From Thermoanaerobacter kivui (GTDB lineage: Bacteria > Bacillota > Thermoanaerobacteria > Thermoanaerobacterales > Thermoanaerobacteraceae), in contig NZ_CP009170.1 of assembly GCF_000763575.1 (NCBI RefSeq), positions 1,801,501 to 1,865,500 of the forward strand: DNA of 64,000 bases. The letters run 5' to 3'. Positions within the stretch are counted from its first letter, which is position 1, and every line of letters starts with the position of its first letter. The notes beneath the pieces are model-generated. The model did no database searches and had not been told where the DNA came from. It saw only the letters and a program-made list of their open reading frames with translations. Both the position numbers and the translations under genes were made by a program. Positions 6,844-46,738 of this stretch are shown here, one piece after another.

Positions 6844-7605
6844 TTACTCCGGAAAAATCTCACGCACAAGTGGAGATTGTATGCGCAAAGTTTGGGTTTT
6901 ACCTTGTGCAACAATGTGCCCATCCAAAAGAACCAGCGTGCGCTCAGTAAGATCGAGAAGGTCACGAAAATCATGACTAATAAGAAGCAGTGAAACCTTG
7001 TTTTTTGCCAGAATCTCCCGAAGAAGGGCCTTTAGTGGACTGCGTGAAGTAGCATCCACTGCTGCAAAAGGTTCATCAAGGAACAAAATTTCCGGTTCCA
7101 TAGCAAACGCCCTTGCTAGCTGAAGACGTGCAAGTTCTCCCCCAGAAAGTGTATGTATCCGCTGAAAAGCAAGCTTTTCTAAATCAAAACACTTAAGCCA
7201 ATCATATGCCCGCTTGGTTGCTTCTCGGGCAGAAAGTCCTCGCATGCGCAGGGGAATACTCACGTTTTGCAAAACACTCCCTGTGAGCGTTGTCGGTTGT
7301 TGAAAGACGATAGACATCTTTCGGCGAACGGTCACTGAAGACCGTCCGTCTCCCATAAAGCCAAGAACTGTAAGCCTCCCAGAAGACGGTGGAATTAGTA
7401 AGGATAAGACTTTAAGGAGCGTACTTTTTCCTGAACCATTGGGACCCGCAAGTCCCAAACGTTCCCCTTGATGCAAAACGAGGCTTATGTTTCGCAGGAT
7501 AAAGCGTTCATTGCGCCGTACACTAATATCTTCGGCTATAATAACCGGCGTTTGATTCTCTATACCCCGAAAATCGGTAGCTTTGCGTTCAAACATATAA
7601 TTCAT
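6844..7605 (-). CDS. tupC: tungstate ABC transporter ATP-binding protein
   Basis: The 253-residue ABC ATPase has Walker A GPNGSGKST (about residues 56-64), signature LSGGELARLQLARA, Walker B EILFLDEP and a switch histidine in LLISHDF. It energises the TupB permease at the inner face of the membrane. ATG follows AAAGGAGG at a 9-base spacing. The gene is the last of tupABC. Like its two neighbours it is visibly richer in G+C than the flanking moe genes, which could mean separate acquisition. Confidence 0.92.
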   Translation of the reverse strand: MNYMFERKATDFRGIENQTPVIIAEDISVRRNERFILRNISLVLHQGERLGLAGPNGSGKSTLLKVLSLLIPPSSGRLTVLGFMGDGRSSVTVRRKMSIVFQQPTTLTGSVLQNVSIPLRMRGLSAREATKRAYDWLKCFDLEKLAFQRIHTLSGGELARLQLARAFAMEPEILFLDEPFAAVDATSRSPLKALLREILAKNKVSLLLISHDFRDLLDLTERTLVLLDGHIVAQGKTQTLRIQSPLVREIFPE

Positions 7606-40080: not shown

Positions 40081-41646
40081 CAGACTGTTGACAAAATATC
40101 GGGAACCCGTTATGATGAGAAGGGTTCCTTGTTTTTTTAACGGTACAAAGCAAAAGAGGAGAGGAGAAGAAAGATGTTATCAAAGAAACAGGATGCCAGA
40201 CATCAAATAGAATTTGTAAGCATAGATCAGTTAGTTCCAAAAGATCACCTTTTAAGGAAGATAGAAAGAGTTATAGATTTTAGTTTCATATATGATTTAG
40301 TAAAAGAGAAATATTCCGAAGATCACGGCAGACCAAGCATAGACCCAGTAGTACTCATAAAAATACTTTTCATTCAATATCTTTTTGGTATACCATCGAT
40401 GAGGAGGACAATAGCAGAAATAAAAACAAATGTAGCGTATAGATGGTTTTTAGGGTATGGGCTGACAGAAGAAATACCTCATTTTTCAACATTTAGTCAG
40501 AACTACATAAGAAGATTCAAGGGGACGGATATATTTGAAAAAATATTTACGAAAATTTTAGAAGAAGCAATAAAACATGGGCTAGTAAATGCAGAGGAAG
40601 TATTCATAGATTCAACCCATGTAAAAGCAAGTGCCAACAAGAAGAAATACACCAAAGAAATAGTAGAAAAAGAAGCCAGGACTTATCAAGAAAAACTAGA
40701 AGAAGAAATAAACAAGGATAGAGAGGCTCATGGCAAAAAGCCATTAAAGAAAATCAAGAAGATAAAGACGAAAGAAGTGAAAGTAAGCAAAACAGACCCG
40801 GATAGCGGAATGTTAAACAAAAACGGAAAAGAAAAAATCTTTGCATATTCTTTTCACACAGCCTGCGATAAAAACGGATTTGTATTAGGAGTAAAAGTTG
40901 AAGCTGCAAATGTACACGACAGTGTGATGTTTCAAGAAGTATTAGAAGAAGTTGAAAAGAGGGTAAGAAAACCGAAAGCAATAGCAGTAGATGCAGGCTA
41001 TAAAAATCCGTACATATTAAAGACAATATTTGATAGACAAATAATACCAGCAGTACCATACACAAGGCCAAAAACAAAAGATGGTTTCATGAAAAAACAT
41101 GAATTTGTTTATGATGAATACTATGACTGTTACATATGCCCGCAGAATGAAATATTAACATATGTTACAACCAACAGAGAAGGATATAGAGAATACAAAT
41201 CAAACCCAGAAAAATGTAAAAACTGTCCTCTAAGAGAAAAGTGTACCCAAAGTAAAGACTACACAAAGAGGATATTCAGGCACATATGGGAAGGATATGT
41301 AGAAGAAGCAGAACACCTAAGGCATACACCTTACTGTAAAGAAGTATATGAGAGAAGGAAAGAGACAATAGAGAGAGTATTTGCAGATTTAAAGGAGAAG
41401 CATGGTTTGCGATGGACGACGTTAAGAGGGAAGGAAAAATTGTCCATGCAAGCGATGCTTGTTTTTGCTGCCATGAATTTAAAGAAAATGGCCTTATGGT
41501 TATGGAGGAAGGGCAAAGGGCCCTTTGACATTTCAAAACTTTATCCATTATTTGGAGTTTTAAAGAAAATTTTATCCAGATATATACAGCCCCTGCTTTC
41601 GGTACTAAGAAAACAGGGGCTAAAATTTTGCTTTGTCAACAAACTG
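40081..41646 (+). mobile_element. IS1182-type insertion sequence, apparently intact
   Basis: The 1,566-bp element begins CAGACTGTTGACAAA and ends in the complement of CAGTTTGTTGACAAA; the ends match at 13 of 15 positions. It encodes one full-length transposase and is flanked by 23-base target duplications of a palindrome. Near the left end a hairpin GGAACCC / GGGTTCC followed by seven T (40102-40138) should block outside transcription. A second stem AGCCCCTG / CAGGGGCT (41588-41621) lies inside the right end. Clean ends and an unbroken frame suggest a recent insertion. Confidence 0.93.
40102..40138 (+). terminator. insulating terminator inside the IS left end
   Basis: GGAACCC (40102-40108) and GGGTTCC (40122-40128) pair, followed by TTGTTTTTTT. 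It lies upstream of the transposase start and would stop read-in from the flank. Confidence 0.75.
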
Positions 41647-41649
41647 TAA
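40174..41649 (+). CDS. IS1182-family transposase
   Basis: A 491-residue DDE transposase. It has an N-terminal DUF772 domain (SIDQLVPKDHLLRKIERVID to GYGLTEEIPHFSTFSQNYI). The acidic residues lie in VFIDSTHVKAS, AIAVDAGYKNP and ETIERVFADLKEKHG, with a cysteine cluster CxxCPLREKC before the last. ATG follows GAGGAGAGGAG. The last five residues (FVNKL) are coded by the right terminal repeat. The stop codon TAA (41647-41649) lies in the target duplication, so the stop depends on the insertion site. Confidence 0.96.
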   Translation: MLSKKQDARHQIEFVSIDQLVPKDHLLRKIERVIDFSFIYDLVKEKYSEDHGRPSIDPVVLIKILFIQYLFGIPSMRRTIAEIKTNVAYRWFLGYGLTEEIPHFSTFSQNYIRRFKGTDIFEKIFTKILEEAIKHGLVNAEEVFIDSTHVKASANKKKYTKEIVEKEARTYQEKLEEEINKDREAHGKKPLKKIKKIKTKEVKVSKTDPDSGMLNKNGKEKIFAYSFHTACDKNGFVLGVKVEAANVHDSVMFQEVLEEVEKRVRKPKAIAVDAGYKNPYILKTIFDRQIIPAVPYTRPKTKDGFMKKHEFVYDEYYDCYICPQNEILTYVTTNREGYREYKSNPEKCKNCPLREKCTQSKDYTKRIFRHIWEGYVEEAEHLRHTPYCKEVYERRKETIERVFADLKEKHGLRWTTLRGKEKLSMQAMLVFAAMNLKKMALWLWRKGKGPFDISKLYPLFGVLKKILSRYIQPLLSVLRKQGLKFCFVNKL

Positions 41650-41748: not shown

Positions 41749-41829
41749 TGTTAATTTAAAAAACCTTTCCCTTTCCCTCCCCTCCACCCCGCATAAAATC
41801 TACATGAGATTTTGGAGGTAATAAAGTTT
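41749..41829 (+). repeat. non-coding dispersed repeat, copy 1 (partial)
   Basis: About 80 bases that match the first third of copies at 46501 and 47938. Shared blocks are TGTTAATTT, a pyrimidine-rich stretch, CCCGCATAAAATCTACATG and AATAAAGTTT. It ends at the acr3 stop codon. Confidence 0.75.
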
Positions 41830-42615
41830 AATCCCCGCTAATACGCTTTGGTAAACCCTCTTTATTATAATATTTTTTCTTCAGGGCTAAAGCCGCATTT
41901 ACAAGTGCAAGCATTACTGGAACCTCAATTAATGGCCCAACAACAGCAGCCATTGCCTGTCCAGAACCTACGCCAAAGACTGCCACAGCAACTGCTATGG
42001 CAAGCTCAAAATTGTTACTGGCTGCAGTAAAGGATAAAGTAACAGTCTGCTCATAATTGAACCCAGCAAGGTATGAGATAAAGAAACTTGCAAAAAACAT
42101 TATAACAAAGTATAACAACAGTGGAATTGCAATCCTTACAACATCACCTGGGAGTGTAACTATATATTTCCCTTTTAAAATAAACATTATAACAATTGTA
42201 TATAAAAGGAATATCAAAGCTAGGGGCGAAATTTTAGGAATAAATACTTTTTTGTACCATATCTTGCCTTTTGACCGAATCAAAATAAATCTCGTAATAA
42301 AACCTGCAGCAAACGGTATACCAAGATAGATTAGAACACTTTTCGCAACTTCCCAGATAGAAATCTCAACTACCATACCACCCCAAGACAGCCCCAAAAT
42401 TTTCGGTAGTAATGTAACAAAGATATATATATATAGAATGAATAAAATATTATTTGAAATATTGAGTTTAAAGCTACTAACGCTGCTGCATATTCATTAT
42501 CACCTTTTGCAAGGGTATTCCATACGATAACCATAGCAATACATCTTGCAAGCCCAATAATAATCAAACCAGTAGCATATTCATGCTTAGAGAGAGCTTT
42601 TCTTTTTGTAGTTGT
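41828..42615 (-). pseudogene. acr3: arsenite efflux permease Acr3, N-terminally truncated and frameshifted
   Basis: Two overlapping frames together encode the C-terminal two thirds of Acr3. The first begins near 42590 ([39 protein letters not shown]) and the second runs from about 42420 to 41828 ([33 protein letters not shown]). The frame changes inside a TA-dinucleotide run at 42421-42436. Reading [15 protein letters not shown] in the other frame restores the family sequence. About 90 N-terminal residues are missing and the upstream sequence is unrelated. The pump is probably dead unless slippage in the TA run rescues the frame, and even then it is truncated. Confidence 0.9.
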
Positions 42616-42826
42616 TCGCAAGTAATCCCCTTATTCTTATATAATGATAATTTCTTTTTGTCTTCTTCGCATTGCTTTATTTCGCTTAGCTCTTTTTTTA
42701 TGGTAGCTGCAGCCGAACAAAAATGGCTATTGATGATCGTATGGTAAAATTTGTAATTTAAGATGAATTTTCTGTATAAAGTTATGCCAATGGCCAGACA
42801 GTATAAAAACTGCCTAGCCAAATAAA

Positions 42827-42873: not shown

Positions 42874-43353
42874 TTAGCAGTTTCCGCAGCAACATCCTCC
42901 ACCGCTTTTTCCTTGTGATTCTAATTCTTCCATAGCTTCCTTTGTTAAAATATCGCTAATAATTTTATCTATTTTTTTACAAATCTCATTTGCAACTTTA
43001 TCAACTATTTCTTCATAATCCTGAGGCATTTCTTTTAATGAAACTAATTCAGAAAGTGCTTTTTCCTCTCCAAGTATTTCTGCTACATTAACAACGGCAT
43101 TTACTTTTCCACTATATTTTTCAGTTGCCCTCATTGCACAAAGTTTTGAACAACCATCAACAGCAATTGTTGGAAATACCTTAGCAAAAAGCCTTTCTTC
43201 TTCTCCTCCTGCAATAAATAAAGGAAGGCATATTGTAACGGTCTCTCCCATTCTAAGCTTTTCTAAAACCTTTCTTGTTGCAAGTCTTGATATTGTTCCT
43301 CCAAGACATTCTTCGCCACTACATGATACTATGCCAATCTTGGTTTCTTTCAT
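42874..43353 (-). CDS. DGC-motif cysteine protein with C-terminal CCCGNC tail
   Basis: A 159-residue protein of the DGC/putative zinc-binding type. It shows IVSCSGEECLGGTISRLATR (first cysteines), a central TICLP cysteine and VDGCSKLCAMRATEK (DGC-x3-C, about residues 67-72). The C-terminus has a unique GGGCCCGNC cluster that looks like a metal or arsenite handle. It is the last intact gene of the ArsR-led operon, starting directly after its paralogue's stop. Biochemical function is not known to me; thiol-based binding of a metal or metalloid is the inference. The stop lies beside an IS-end-like remnant. Confidence 0.8.
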   Translation of the reverse strand: MKETKIGIVSCSGEECLGGTISRLATRKVLEKLRMGETVTICLPLFIAGGEEERLFAKVFPTIAVDGCSKLCAMRATEKYSGKVNAVVNVAEILGEEKALSELVSLKEMPQDYEEIVDKVANEICKKIDKIISDILTKEAMEELESQGKSGGGCCCGNC

Positions 43354-43749
43354 TTATTTCACCTCCAAGTTATCAATTATCTCAACTATTTTATCAGCAA
43401 TATAATCTACAACTTCCCATCCTTCTTCATTTAAATTCGTAGCTGTTCCCGGTTTCATTGCTCTTTTTTCCTTTGCAAACTCTATGGATTTTAATTCTTC
43501 AATCACTTCAGCTCCTGCTTCTTTTGCATTTTTGGCAGCACACATCTTAGGGCAGCCATCAATTGTGATACACTTTTTTCCTTGCATATAATTTTTTATT
43601 TCCTCATCTCCTGTAACAAGGTAAGCTAAACATTTAGTTTCTGCTTCATTCTTTTTAAGTTCCCTTACAACCTTTAAAGCTGCTTCTCTAGCTATTAAGC
43701 CATAAACCTTTCCCATCCCACTACAAGGTATTACAACAACTTTAGACAT
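43354..43749 (-). CDS. DGC-motif cysteine protein
   Basis: A 131-residue paralogue: VVVIPCSGMGKVYGLIAREA, TKCLAYLVTG, ITIDGCPKMCAAKNAKEAG, and a C-terminal helix VVDYIADKIVEIIDNLE. The four cysteines line up with those of the three other DGC proteins in the operon. I choose ATG 43749, nine bases after GGAAGGTGG; the gene overlaps the end of the GcvH-fusion gene by eight bases. It may form a complex with its paralogues (inference). Confidence 0.8.
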   Translation of the reverse strand: MSKVVVIPCSGMGKVYGLIAREAALKVVRELKKNEAETKCLAYLVTGDEEIKNYMQGKKCITIDGCPKMCAAKNAKEAGAEVIEELKSIEFAKEKRAMKPGTATNLNEEGWEVVDYIADKIVEIIDNLEVK

Positions 43750-44596
43750 GAAACTCATCCACCTTCCTTTTCATTTTTTCAAAGTATTCATCAAACGATA
43801 ATAAAAACATTTTATCTGAATCAAAATTACTAAGCTCTATATCGGCAATCCATCCCTTTTCATAAGGATTTTCGTTTATATATTCAGGACTTTCTAAAAG
43901 TTTCTCGTTTATCCTAACTATCCTTCCGCTAACTGGTGATATAATCTCAAAAACAGCTTTTCCAGATTCAATAGATCCTACTTCATCAAATTGACTTATT
44001 TCATTTCCTACAGATGGTGGATTAAAGAACATTATATCGGAAAGACTTTGCTGAACATAATCCGTAACACCAATTCTTGCTAAATTTCCATCAGCATAAA
44101 CCCAACAGTCATTTTCATTGAAATAAAAGCCAGTTTTAGGCAATCTAAATATAAACTTATCCTTTTTATATATTTCATAATCTATAACTTCTGGAAATTT
44201 CAATTCTAAATTTGACAATGTTTTTTGACTGTCTTCCTCTACTAGTTGTTTAATTATTATTTCAACAATCTTTTTTTCATTTTCTCCTATTTTAAGGTCC
44301 TTTGAAAGAGTAATGTTATTTTGCTGTGATATTTCAGTTACATTTACCTTTTTATAAACTTTAAGATTCTTTTCAGAGGCAAGCTTTGTTGCACACCTTG
44401 TGTTGCATCCATCAATTATTATCAATTGATTTTCATTTGCTAATTTATTATATCTTGCATCGGCAACTCTATAGAATACTGGACAAATTATTTCACAAGA
44501 AATTTTTTCTTTTAAAGTTAGTGCTGCTTCCCTTGATACGCAACCTGCACATTTATCTAATCCATTACAAGGCAAAACAACATACTTTTTATCCAT
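43742..44596 (-). CDS. DGC-motif domain fused to a GcvH-like lipoyl-carrier domain
   Basis: The 284-residue protein has an N-terminal DGC domain (residues 1-115: VVLPCNGLDKCAGCVSREAA, CEIICPVFYRVADA, IIDGCNTRCATKLASEK). From about 150 to 275 follows a GcvH-like domain (WVYADGNLARIGVTDYVQQ, FGSVES-like EVGSIESGKAVFEI, ISPVSGRIVRINEKLL, ENPYEKGWIADIE). The lysine of IESGKAV sits where GcvH is lipoylated, so a lipoyl-lysine arm is predicted. No glycine-cleavage P or T protein is nearby. ATG follows GGAGATGGAG and overlaps the ferredoxin gene by eight bases. I know of no described function for this fusion. Confidence 0.85.
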   Translation of the reverse strand: MDKKYVVLPCNGLDKCAGCVSREAALTLKEKISCEIICPVFYRVADARYNKLANENQLIIIDGCNTRCATKLASEKNLKVYKKVNVTEISQQNNITLSKDLKIGENEKKIVEIIIKQLVEEDSQKTLSNLELKFPEVIDYEIYKKDKFIFRLPKTGFYFNENDCWVYADGNLARIGVTDYVQQSLSDIMFFNPPSVGNEISQFDEVGSIESGKAVFEIISPVSGRIVRINEKLLESPEYINENPYEKGWIADIELSNFDSDKMFLLSFDEYFEKMKRKVDEFHV

Positions 44597-44882
44597 TTTG
44601 CTCCATCTCCATTCTTAATTGTTTAATCTTCTTAGTCACTTCTGATTTATCTGGAAATGAAAGAGCATCAACTCCACAGGTTTTCCCACAAGCCCTACAA
44701 AAGACAACGCAATTATAAGGATTTTTTACTATGACCTTTTTTTCTTCATTTTCTCTAACTTCATATACATCGTGTGGACAAAACTTAACGCATTCAAGGC
44801 AATTGTTACATTTATCATAATCAATTATAGGGAACCAATCTATTTTTTCCCTTGGAACTCCCATAAAAGTATTCTCACTCAT
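44589..44882 (-). CDS. two-cluster ferredoxin-like protein
   Basis: A 97-residue protein with cysteine motifs CNNCLECVKFC followed by PHDVYE, and CVVFCRACGKTCGVDAL (C-x3-C-x2-C-x3-C). The second spacing differs from classical ferredoxins. It could carry two 4Fe-4S clusters and pass electrons to the HdrA-like or DGC-GcvH partner encoded on either side. Start overlaps the HdrA-like gene's stop by four bases (ATGA). Confidence 0.88.
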   Translation of the reverse strand: MSENTFMGVPREKIDWFPIIDYDKCNNCLECVKFCPHDVYEVRENEEKKVIVKNPYNCVVFCRACGKTCGVDALSFPDKSEVTKKIKQLRMEMEQNG

Positions 44883-45262
44883 AACAACTCCTCCTCAAGC
44901 CCCAACTCTTTTAATGCATTTTTAACTACCTCTAGTGCTTTTTCATTTGTCATATCCCTTATATCAAGCATAACTGCATCTTTTTCAATGTCAAGTCCCG
45001 CTTCTTTAAAGGCATCTTTGAACATTTTTCTTTGCATATTTGGCGCACAGGCGCCAATTATTAATTTTCTATGAGCCTTTAAAAAGTCTGCAAGAAACCT
45101 ATCTCCATCTTCTTCACAAAGCTGTGGATGAATAAAAGCATATTCCACTGGAAGTTCAACTCTAACTTGATTTATAAAGTCCCAAATATCCATCTTTGAA
45201 AATCCTGAACACTTTCCTGTGCAAACACACATAATAAAACCTGGTAAATTCCTTTCACTCAT
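44879..45262 (-). CDS. HdrA N-terminal-domain-like protein
   Basis: A 127-residue stand-alone protein that resembles the first 140 residues of heterodisulfide reductase HdrA. It has GFIMCVCTGKCSGFSKMDIW, YAFIHPQLCEEDG, LIIGACAPNMQRKMF and EAGLDIEKDAVMLDIRD. The FAD-binding and ferredoxin parts of HdrA are absent, so it is probably a small cluster-binding adaptor. ATG is preceded by GAAGGAGGG. It is followed by the ferredoxin gene with a four-base overlap. Confidence 0.82.
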   Translation of the reverse strand: MSERNLPGFIMCVCTGKCSGFSKMDIWDFINQVRVELPVEYAFIHPQLCEEDGDRFLADFLKAHRKLIIGACAPNMQRKMFKDAFKEAGLDIEKDAVMLDIRDMTNEKALEVVKNALKELGLEEELL

Positions 45263-45276
45263 GATAACCCTCCTTC

Positions 45277-45420
45277 ATAGTTTATGAACTGATAAACCTA
45301 ATGCACCATTTATCGCTTCAAAGACAGCCTCTGATGTTGAAATACAGCCTTCATTTAAACAAACTCCGCCTAGATTCTTTTGTTCTATCAACGTAACTTT
45401 TGCCCCTAATTTTGCACCAG
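45277..45420 (-). pseudogene. lipoamide dehydrogenase-like N-terminal relic
   Basis: In a frame shifted from the DUF169 fragment, the minus strand reads [20 protein letters not shown] followed by NEGCIST. This matches the region around the redox-active disulfide of dihydrolipoamide dehydrogenases and related flavoenzymes. It then continues [14 protein letters not shown] to a stop. Both the FAD-binding start and everything after the disulfide loop are missing. The junction with the DUF169 gene is at about 45430. It suggests a flavin disulfide reductase once belonged to this operon. Confidence 0.7.
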
Positions 45421-45704
45421 TTATTGCTTGGTTTAAGCCCAAAAGCAGCAGCAGAAGCAGGACATGAAATATTCTCGCTGGTAACCATTACTTTTTCTCC
45501 ATTTCCTACCCTCATAAGCGCCTTGCAGTACCGCGTTTTTGTCACATCATCATAATTATCTTTTAGGTTTTGTTTTTCTTTTTCCTTTAAAAATTTAACC
45601 CCAACAGGTTCTCTTTCAAGCCCAAGAATCTCTTTCAATTTGGTGCACATTCCAATAAATTGTTCATTAAGCTCAGCACCTCTCCTTCTAATCCTTTCTT
45701 TCAC
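45351..45704 (-). pseudogene. DUF169 family protein, C-terminally truncated
   Basis: The first 95 or so residues fit DUF169: [37 protein letters not shown] and [16 protein letters not shown] with its conserved cysteine. After that the sequence becomes foreign ([14 protein letters not shown]...) because a deletion joined it out of frame to a lipoamide-dehydrogenase-like relic. Full DUF169 proteins have about 230 residues. The start is GTG, overlapping the arsR stop by 17 bases, so it would be translationally coupled. The remaining 117-residue product is probably non-functional. Confidence 0.75.
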
Positions 45705-46026
45705 ACCATTTCGTTTTTGAGTGAAGTCTTTGAATATCTTTCTGAATAACAGAATACCTTTCTTTATTGCTAACTATAGTTTCGATAATATGTCTCATAA
45801 CGATATCATCCAAATTCAAGTAATAAAAAATCCATTGTCCTTGTCTTTCGTCTCTCACAAATCCAACATCCCGAAGTTTTGCAAGGTGCCTGGATATTTT
45901 AGGCTGTGTTTCCTCCATAATTTCGCACATCTCACATACGCAAAGTTCTTTATGAAACAATAAAACCAAAATCCGCAGCCTTGTTTCATCGGACAAAACC
46001 TTAAAAAATTCTACCAATTTATCCAT
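45688..46026 (-). CDS. arsR: ArsR-family metalloregulator
   Basis: A 112-residue winged-helix repressor: FFKVLSDETRLRILVLLFHK, ELCVCEMCEIMEE and QPKISRHLAKLRDVGFV. The ELCVCEMC motif is the arsenite/antimonite-binding pattern of classical ArsR, with an extra cysteine (three in the run). ATG follows AAGGGTGGAG. Its gene is second in the operon after a small DGC gene. A perfect inverted repeat in the promoter of that gene is the likely operator. Confidence 0.94.
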   Translation of the reverse strand: MDKLVEFFKVLSDETRLRILVLLFHKELCVCEMCEIMEETQPKISRHLAKLRDVGFVRDERQGQWIFYYLNLDDIVMRHIIETIVSNKERYSVIQKDIQRLHSKTKWCERKD

Positions 46027-46117: not shown

Positions 46118-46411
46118 TCATTGAAGTTTTTGTTTTTTTTCAATGCCGAAATCACTGGTCAGCACTATTTCTTCATATCCTGTTATTCCTACTTTATCCA
46201 ATGCTTTTGATGAACACTTCATTGGACAGCCGTTTAGTGCAATAAACTTATCATTTTGCTTCGCCATGTCAATAATCTTTTCAATTCCTAAAGGGAGTCC
46301 TAATGCGCAAACCATGTTAATTTTTTCATTGTCTACATACTTCAATGCTACCTTACTTGTCATATTCCCTACATTACATGCCCCTTGGCAAGGCAAAATA
46401 CCTAACTTCAT
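46118..46411 (-). CDS. DGC-motif cysteine protein, first gene of the ArsR operon (ends early at a poly-A frameshift)
   Basis: As read, a 97-residue protein: LGILPCQGACNVGNMTSKVA, NMVCALGLPLG and IALNGCPMKCSSKALDKVG. It has NGC where the paralogues have DGC. The stop follows directly on an eight-A run, after which the proper C-terminal helix continues in another frame (to 46045). Either slippage gives two products, or the gene is newly broken, or the run is a sequencing error. ATG follows TAGGAGTG. A strong promoter and operator lie upstream. Confidence 0.8.
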   Translation of the reverse strand: MKLGILPCQGACNVGNMTSKVALKYVDNEKINMVCALGLPLGIEKIIDMAKQNDKFIALNGCPMKCSSKALDKVGITGYEEIVLTSDFGIEKKQKLQ

Positions 46412-46500: not shown

Positions 46501-46738
46501 TGTTAATTTTAAAAAAAACTCTTTCCCTTCTCCTCTCCTCCAACCCGCATAAAATCTACATGGAATTTTATGGGATGGAATAAAGTTTTTCTGTGAATCA
46601 GTATTATTTTTCCTATTATTTTCCAAATACTGCTCTAATTTGTGTGAAAAAAGTTGGTCCGAAAGGGGCAGGATCATGGTTCAAGGAAAAAAGGGATAAG
46701 TGGCGTAAGCCCTATATTTTTCAAGGCTTTACCACTTC
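46501..46738 (+). repeat. non-coding dispersed repeat, copy 2
   Basis: About 240 bases aligned nearly end to end with 47938-48178. Shared blocks include CCCGCATAAAATCT, AATAAAGTTTTTC, ACTGCTCTA, GTGAAAAAAGT, GGGGCAGG and AAGGGATAAGTGGCGTAA. It lies just upstream of the DGC/arsR promoter; copy 1 lies beyond acr3 in the same orientation, so the two flank the block. No frame of convincing length is conserved between copies. Confidence 0.85.

Follow-up and report, generated by a model that had tools for sequence, protein, structure and literature searches.

Lipoic acid has, to our knowledge, only a few roles. These lie in the 2-oxoacid dehydrogenases, in glycine cleavage and in sulfur oxidation by the sHdr system. 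The classical toxicity of As(III) stems from its binding to lipoyl dithiols. In the sHdr-LbpA system, a GcvH-like lipoyl carrier is accompanied by Fe-S proteins related to Hdr and by a lipoate ligase of its own (Cao et al. 2018, PMC6067878; Tanabe et al. 2023, PMC10332631). The five-gene cassette of Thermoanaerobacter kivui described here shares with that system a lipoyl carrier outside glycine cleavage, Hdr-related Fe-S proteins, a dedicated ligase, linkage to dihydrolipoamide dehydrogenase (Lpd; in archaea in the case of sHdr-LbpA) and an ArsR-type regulator. In contrast to it, the carrier of the cassette is fused to a DGC domain, HdrA is represented by its N-terminal domain only, no full HdrA, HdrB or HdrC was recognised near the cassettes, the LplA ligases nearby are of the canonical TIGR00545 type, the neighbours are arsenic genes, and the hosts are anaerobic fermenters, acetogens and Asgard archaea. 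With ars operons (arsR, acr3, arsP, arsA/D, arsC, arsM, arsEFG) the cassette has the neighbourhood and the regulator family in common, but neither Pfam nor NCBIfam lists any of its five core proteins as the product of a named ars gene. The open-access literature searched yielded no description of either fusion or cassette, which is weak evidence of absence, and a paper on ArrAB-independent arsenate in Fusibacter (PMC9751042) does not mention the cassette proteins.

The window, that is, the whole stretch of 64,000 nucleotides analysed, spans positions 1,801,501-1,865,500 of contig C1 (NZ_CP009170.1). The core of the cassette consists of an HdrA-N-like Fe-S protein, a two-cluster ferredoxin, a DGC-GcvH fusion and two DGC proteins, and the order on the minus strand is ArsR, a damaged segment, the 127-aa protein, the 97-aa ferredoxin, the fusion and the two DGC proteins:

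45688..46026, minus strand: ArsR-family regulator with the motif ELCVCEMC (NF033788; motif read)
45351..45704, minus strand: deletion chimera of the N-terminal 74 positions of DUF169 and residues 21-51 of the cassette lipoamide dehydrogenase
45275..45340, minus strand: remnant with the last 21 residues and the stop of the same lipoamide dehydrogenase (tblastn of residues 440-461 of the Lpd of locus L051, 82% identity)
44879..45262, minus strand: stand-alone homologue of the HdrA N-terminal domain, 127 aa, invariant Cys12/14/18/49/72, core gene (profile, model, alignment A2)
44589..44882, minus strand: ferredoxin-like protein, 97 aa, two 4Fe-4S motifs, core gene (Pfam Fer4_10; conserved in the cassettes)
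43742..44596, minus strand: DGC-GcvH fusion, 284 aa (Pfam, alignment, structure model)
43354..43758, minus strand: DGC protein a, 134 aa, four invariant cysteines, core gene (PF08859; alignment of 25)
42874..43353, minus strand: DGC protein b, 159 aa, four invariant cysteines and a Cys-rich tail (GGGCCCGNC), core gene (PF08859; alignment of 22)
41828..42621, minus strand: ACR3 gene for arsenite efflux, broken into two frames and without about 100 N-terminal residues (TIGR00832 pieces 101-157 and 165-326)

The original prediction had recognised the open reading frame of the fusion, which is real, but not its location on the minus strand. It had also assigned residues 1-115 to a DGC domain and 150-275 to a GcvH-like carrier in one chain, and Pfam agrees, with both domains well above cut-off: PF08859 matches residues 6-99 (63.3 bits, cut-off 27) and PF01597 (GCV_H) residues 158-277 (116.1 bits, cut-off 22.2), joined by a linker at about 120-150. 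The DGC match together with the DGC...C cysteines makes the protein a member of PF08859. The motifs IESGKAV, TDYVQQ and SPVSGRIV are all present, and Lys213 within the first of them lines up with the lysine in the ESVKA of solved H-proteins, as expected for the lipoylation position. An AlphaFold model built from 26 natural homologues (pLDDT 89.6; pTM 0.57, with a linker of low confidence at 122-128) superposes with its residues 150-282 on residues 1-131 of the pea H-protein 1htp (Z 23.0, rmsd 0.9, 131 residues). Given the offset of about 150, Lys213 falls on pea Lys63, the lipoyl site; a lysine placed elsewhere in the model would have counted against the original prediction, which thus withstands this check. 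The fusion has the GcvH fold together with the lipoyl lysine.

Conservation was counted in an alignment of 53 fusions, in which the lysine position is readable in 51 and occupied by lysine in all of these. Cys64 and Cys68 of the DGC domain occur in 53/53 and Cys10 in 50/50 non-gap rows, so that three DGC cysteines are invariant among the complete sequences, and Cys38 is found in 42/53. Asp163 and Trp165 are likewise present in every fusion. Residue 164, the neighbour of the invariant Trp and counterpart of pea Glu14, is cysteine in 40/53 and Phe, Val or Ala in 13/53. The His-Glu-Trp found in most ordinary GcvHs is retained in no fusion and is replaced by NDCW or NDFW. By description, LbpA has a pair of additional conserved cysteines, one towards each terminus of the carrier. 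The fusion has the often present Cys164, and a conserved C-terminal cysteine was not found in its alignment (A1).

These data bear on whether the fusion is a moonlighting H-protein of glycine cleavage or a lipoyl-relay donor for other complexes. It has the GcvH fold and just passes NF002270 (117.8 vs. a cut-off of 117), but misses the gcvH equivalog model TIGR00527 (104.1 vs. 115.85 bits). The Glu of His-Glu-Trp contributes to the methylamine pocket of the H-protein, and its loss speaks against a role in glycine cleavage. In a tree of GcvH domains, all 35 fusions tested form one clade (support 98/99) apart from all 53 ordinary GcvHs. The DGC domain and other linked genes also set the fusion apart from GcvH. 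As the original prediction had stated, no glycine cleavage genes lie nearby; the locus of this pathway in T. kivui is located at C1:245,000-247,600, well away from the window. Moreover, GcvP glycine decarboxylase was not found over cut-off in eight genomes carrying the fusion (G025, G236, G420-G422, G430, G431, G435). A glycine-cleavage role was rejected because some hosts lack GcvP or E2, the HEW motif is lost and the clade is separate, and we consider this reading very improbable in either form.

The gene content of four host genomes argues for lipoylation of the carrier. Genome content was tested family by family, and the lipoyl acceptors sought were PF01597 and PF00198 only. In G236 and in Caloramator fervidus (G420), Clostridium tepidiprofundi (G421) and C. 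frigoris (G422), the fusion is the sole GcvH-family protein, bar weak biotin-carrier-like matches; neither a 2-oxoacid dehydrogenase E2 acyltransferase nor LipA lipoyl synthase (over cut-off) was found in any of them. G236 is a single contig of 99% completeness, and the other three are drafts. In all four, the LplA genes that score over cut-off are found at a distance of 1-8 kb from the fusion. Since the fusion is the only GcvH in these genomes, without GcvP, E2 or LipA and with LplA alongside, Lys213 is very probably lipoylated. An intact Lpd with CxxxxC (TIGR01350 type) is located directly upstream of the cassette in 7/27 scan loci, including those of C. fervidus, C. tepidiprofundi and C. 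frigoris, and nearby in others. Many clostridial cassettes include Lpd and some lipoate ligase. Ligase, carrier and Lpd appear to be the whole lipoate economy of such a genome, which would be hard to explain if the fusion were not lipoylated.

A search for the same fusion in other organisms had been suggested with the original prediction, and one collection scan recovered it in 27 loci of other genomes, which rules out a chance fusion or a frame error. When the neighbourhoods were clustered, the fusion was again surrounded by the core genes. Among the hosts are Caloramator, Clostridium, Eubacterium, Acetobacterium, Formimonas, Bacteroidales, Dehalococcoidales, Geothermincola and Asgard archaea, so that genetically tractable acetogens are represented as well as Asgard archaea. 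The original prediction was right about the architecture of the protein, but missed the operon, the Lpd and LplA partners, the arsenic context and this wide distribution. Stand-alone HdrA-N relatives above 130 bits occur in about 10/398 genomes of the phylum of the window, about 31/227 of the Asgard phylum and 1/395 of the Bacteroidetes phylum, and the fusion is present in 16 of the 17 Asgard HdrA-N loci opened. A plasmid search returned GcvH-domain matches only and not the fusion. Divergent Asgard cassettes (L202-L210, L212) mostly have NDFW instead of NDCW and lack Cys38, but keep the lipoyl lysine. In other Asgard cassettes (L196, L197, L200, L074, L075, L077), a family of 95-100 aa (c28), without a match in Pfam or NCBIfam, is conserved next to ArsR and a further DGC gene.

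The 127-aa core protein has no Pfam family. Its profile matches about residues 7-93 of the 671-aa chain of HdrA (7bkb_A; E 6e-4), and its model matches the HdrA N-terminus by fold (E 5e-6). It thus resembles the N-terminal domain of methanogen HdrA of heterodisulfide reductase, but lacks the rest of that protein and is not a complete HdrA that includes the flavin domain. Stand-alone HdrA N-domains of a sister family (L117-L119, L121, L122, L124, L125, L127), scoring about 110-118 bits to A2, occur without DGC-GcvH in genomes related to that of the window, frequently close to ArsR, ferredoxin, ACR3, SLAC1 or Nitro_FeMo-Co genes. As for the DGC proteins, PDB sequence searches with one of them found no relative, and the fold look-alikes of the domain (best 3pu6, Z 9.4; others, including ArsH, up to 8.0) were too weak to derive a function.

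The neighbourhood of the cassettes points to arsenic. In the fetched flanks of 37 cassettes, genes for ACR3, ArsA, ArsD, ArsP, ArsC, ArsM or ArsF were found near 24, a linkage as in ars operons, compared to 1/19 control regions (p 1.2e-5), which were taken from the same genomes, mostly around gcv or biotin-carrier genes, and are not random. ArsR was found near 29/37 cassettes and 0/19 controls. Family scans confirmed ArsM, ArsC, ArsA, ArsD, ArsP, ArsE and ArsF near cassettes. Within the Asgard archaea, only L071 among the loci of the first collection scan has an arsenic gene in its flanks, and an ACR3-type gene lies within about 5 kb in 8 of 17 further loci. The ELCVCEMC of the window ArsR resembles the As(III) site ELCVCDLC of the classical, E. 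coli-type ArsR; the ArsRs adjacent to cassettes vary in the cysteine site. An arsenic or metalloid function of the cassette appears likely from this gene context. Matches to the TsoR/TsoB and SaoE models scored far under the cut-offs. At L051, the ORF at 6845-7330 and the next one (about 160 and 178 aa), taken together, resemble an ArsP-type permease split in two, the first matching PF03773 weakly, and similar pairs occur in L052, L055, L056, L076 and L111-L113.

The enrichment of arsenic genes and the cysteine motif of the window ArsR favour a lipoyl dithiol arm acting on an arsenical. We are inclined to regard the fusion as a dedicated lipoyl carrier that acts apart from glycine cleavage, in a five-protein cassette of anaerobes for arsenic or another thiol-seeking metalloid. 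LplA, whose gene lies next to the fusion in several genomes, would lipoylate Lys213, and the lipoyl disulfide would be reduced to the dithiol by NADH via the Lpd of the cassette where present, or alternatively by the ferredoxin and the HdrA-N-like Fe-S protein. Reduction by NADH cannot be universal, because the Bacteroidales and Asgard cassettes seen are without Lpd. As a vicinal dithiol, the dihydrolipoyl arm would then reduce or bind the arsenical and hand it over to the cysteine-rich, putatively metal- or thiol-binding DGC domains of the fusion itself and its two partners, from where it might reach exporters or modifying enzymes (ACR3, ArsP, ArsM).

Vicinal dithiols bind As(III) strongly, and the dihydrolipoyl and DGC cysteines might therefore only sequester As(III) and deliver it to efflux pumps, with the redox partners merely keeping the thiols reduced. 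While the ACR3 and ArsP neighbours fit such a buffer and chaperone, and Cys164 could supply a third thiol ligand, the residue is Phe, Val or Ala in 13/53 fusions, and two conserved Fe-S proteins plus Lpd seem excessive for the purpose; we hold both the sequestration and this limited part for the redox proteins to be rather improbable. A three-thiol As(III) site of dihydrolipoyl and Cys164 was also considered, but Cys164 is not universal.

Sulfur chemistry of the kind proposed for LbpA is the main rival to the arsenic relay, although an unlikely one. The lipoyl arm would carry sulfane sulfur, or serve selenium handling, between the DGC and HdrA-like Fe-S partners, and arsenic genes would be neighbours because sulfidic anaerobes meet both. 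The closest functional precedent is of this kind: LbpA, which comes with Hdr-like proteins, its own ligase and, in archaea, a linked Lpd (PMC6067878). Cysteine desulfurase near 6/37 cassettes, rhodanese near 3/37 and FeS genes near some also fit, but desulfurase is not significantly enriched over the controls (p 0.23), arsenic genes are far commoner neighbours, and sHdrB/C-like genes were not recognised in the clustered neighbourhoods. The desulfurases are of the TIGR01977 type (L054, L067, L109, L111, L113, L114) and often accompanied by a 180-aa PF04060 FeS protein; L111 and L114 also encode a Cys/Gly-rich protein of 110 aa.

Returning to the arsenic reading, the toxicity of As(III) via lipoyl dithiols makes a lipoyl carrier among arsenic genes a clear and testable hypothesis; if true, the target of arsenic poisoning would have been turned into a detoxifying tool. 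Whether the cassette is a dedicated lipoyl-arm system for arsenic or metalloid redox or relay, common to anaerobic bacteria and Asgard archaea, is in our judgement evenly balanced. Being apparently the sole reason for a lipoate ligase in some genomes, it would add a further role of lipoic acid. It also places DGC proteins, listed in Pfam as of unknown function, and stand-alone HdrA N-domains in a functional setting for the first time.

The window copy was probably brought in from outside. Over 2,463 bp, its cassette DNA shares 88% identity with that of Caloramator fervidus, which is also the nearest neighbour of the fusion in the tree, and together this points to lateral acquisition. Within its genus, the fusion occurs in this genome only (1/10), and one genome of another genus in the family carries it as well. 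Judged by comparison with the C. fervidus cassette, Lpd is deleted in the window copy; ACR3 is truncated, DUF169 is cut and a transposase-like ORF lies alongside, as would be expected of a decaying, non-functional island. However, the five core ORFs are all full length with dN/dS of 0.005-0.13 versus C. fervidus, and they therefore appear to be still in use and under purifying selection. The genome further contains three other Lpd genes, two lipA and three LplA-type matches, which could serve the cassette in trans, and we regard decay as highly unlikely. The transposase-like ORF (491 aa, 40174-41649, plus strand) adjoins the truncated ACR3. Upstream of ArsR, a fourth DGC protein of another type (MKLGILPCQGACNVGN...) is encoded at 46118-46411 on the minus strand; the ORF as listed begins with TTG at 46543, and a start at the ATG near 46411 is likelier.
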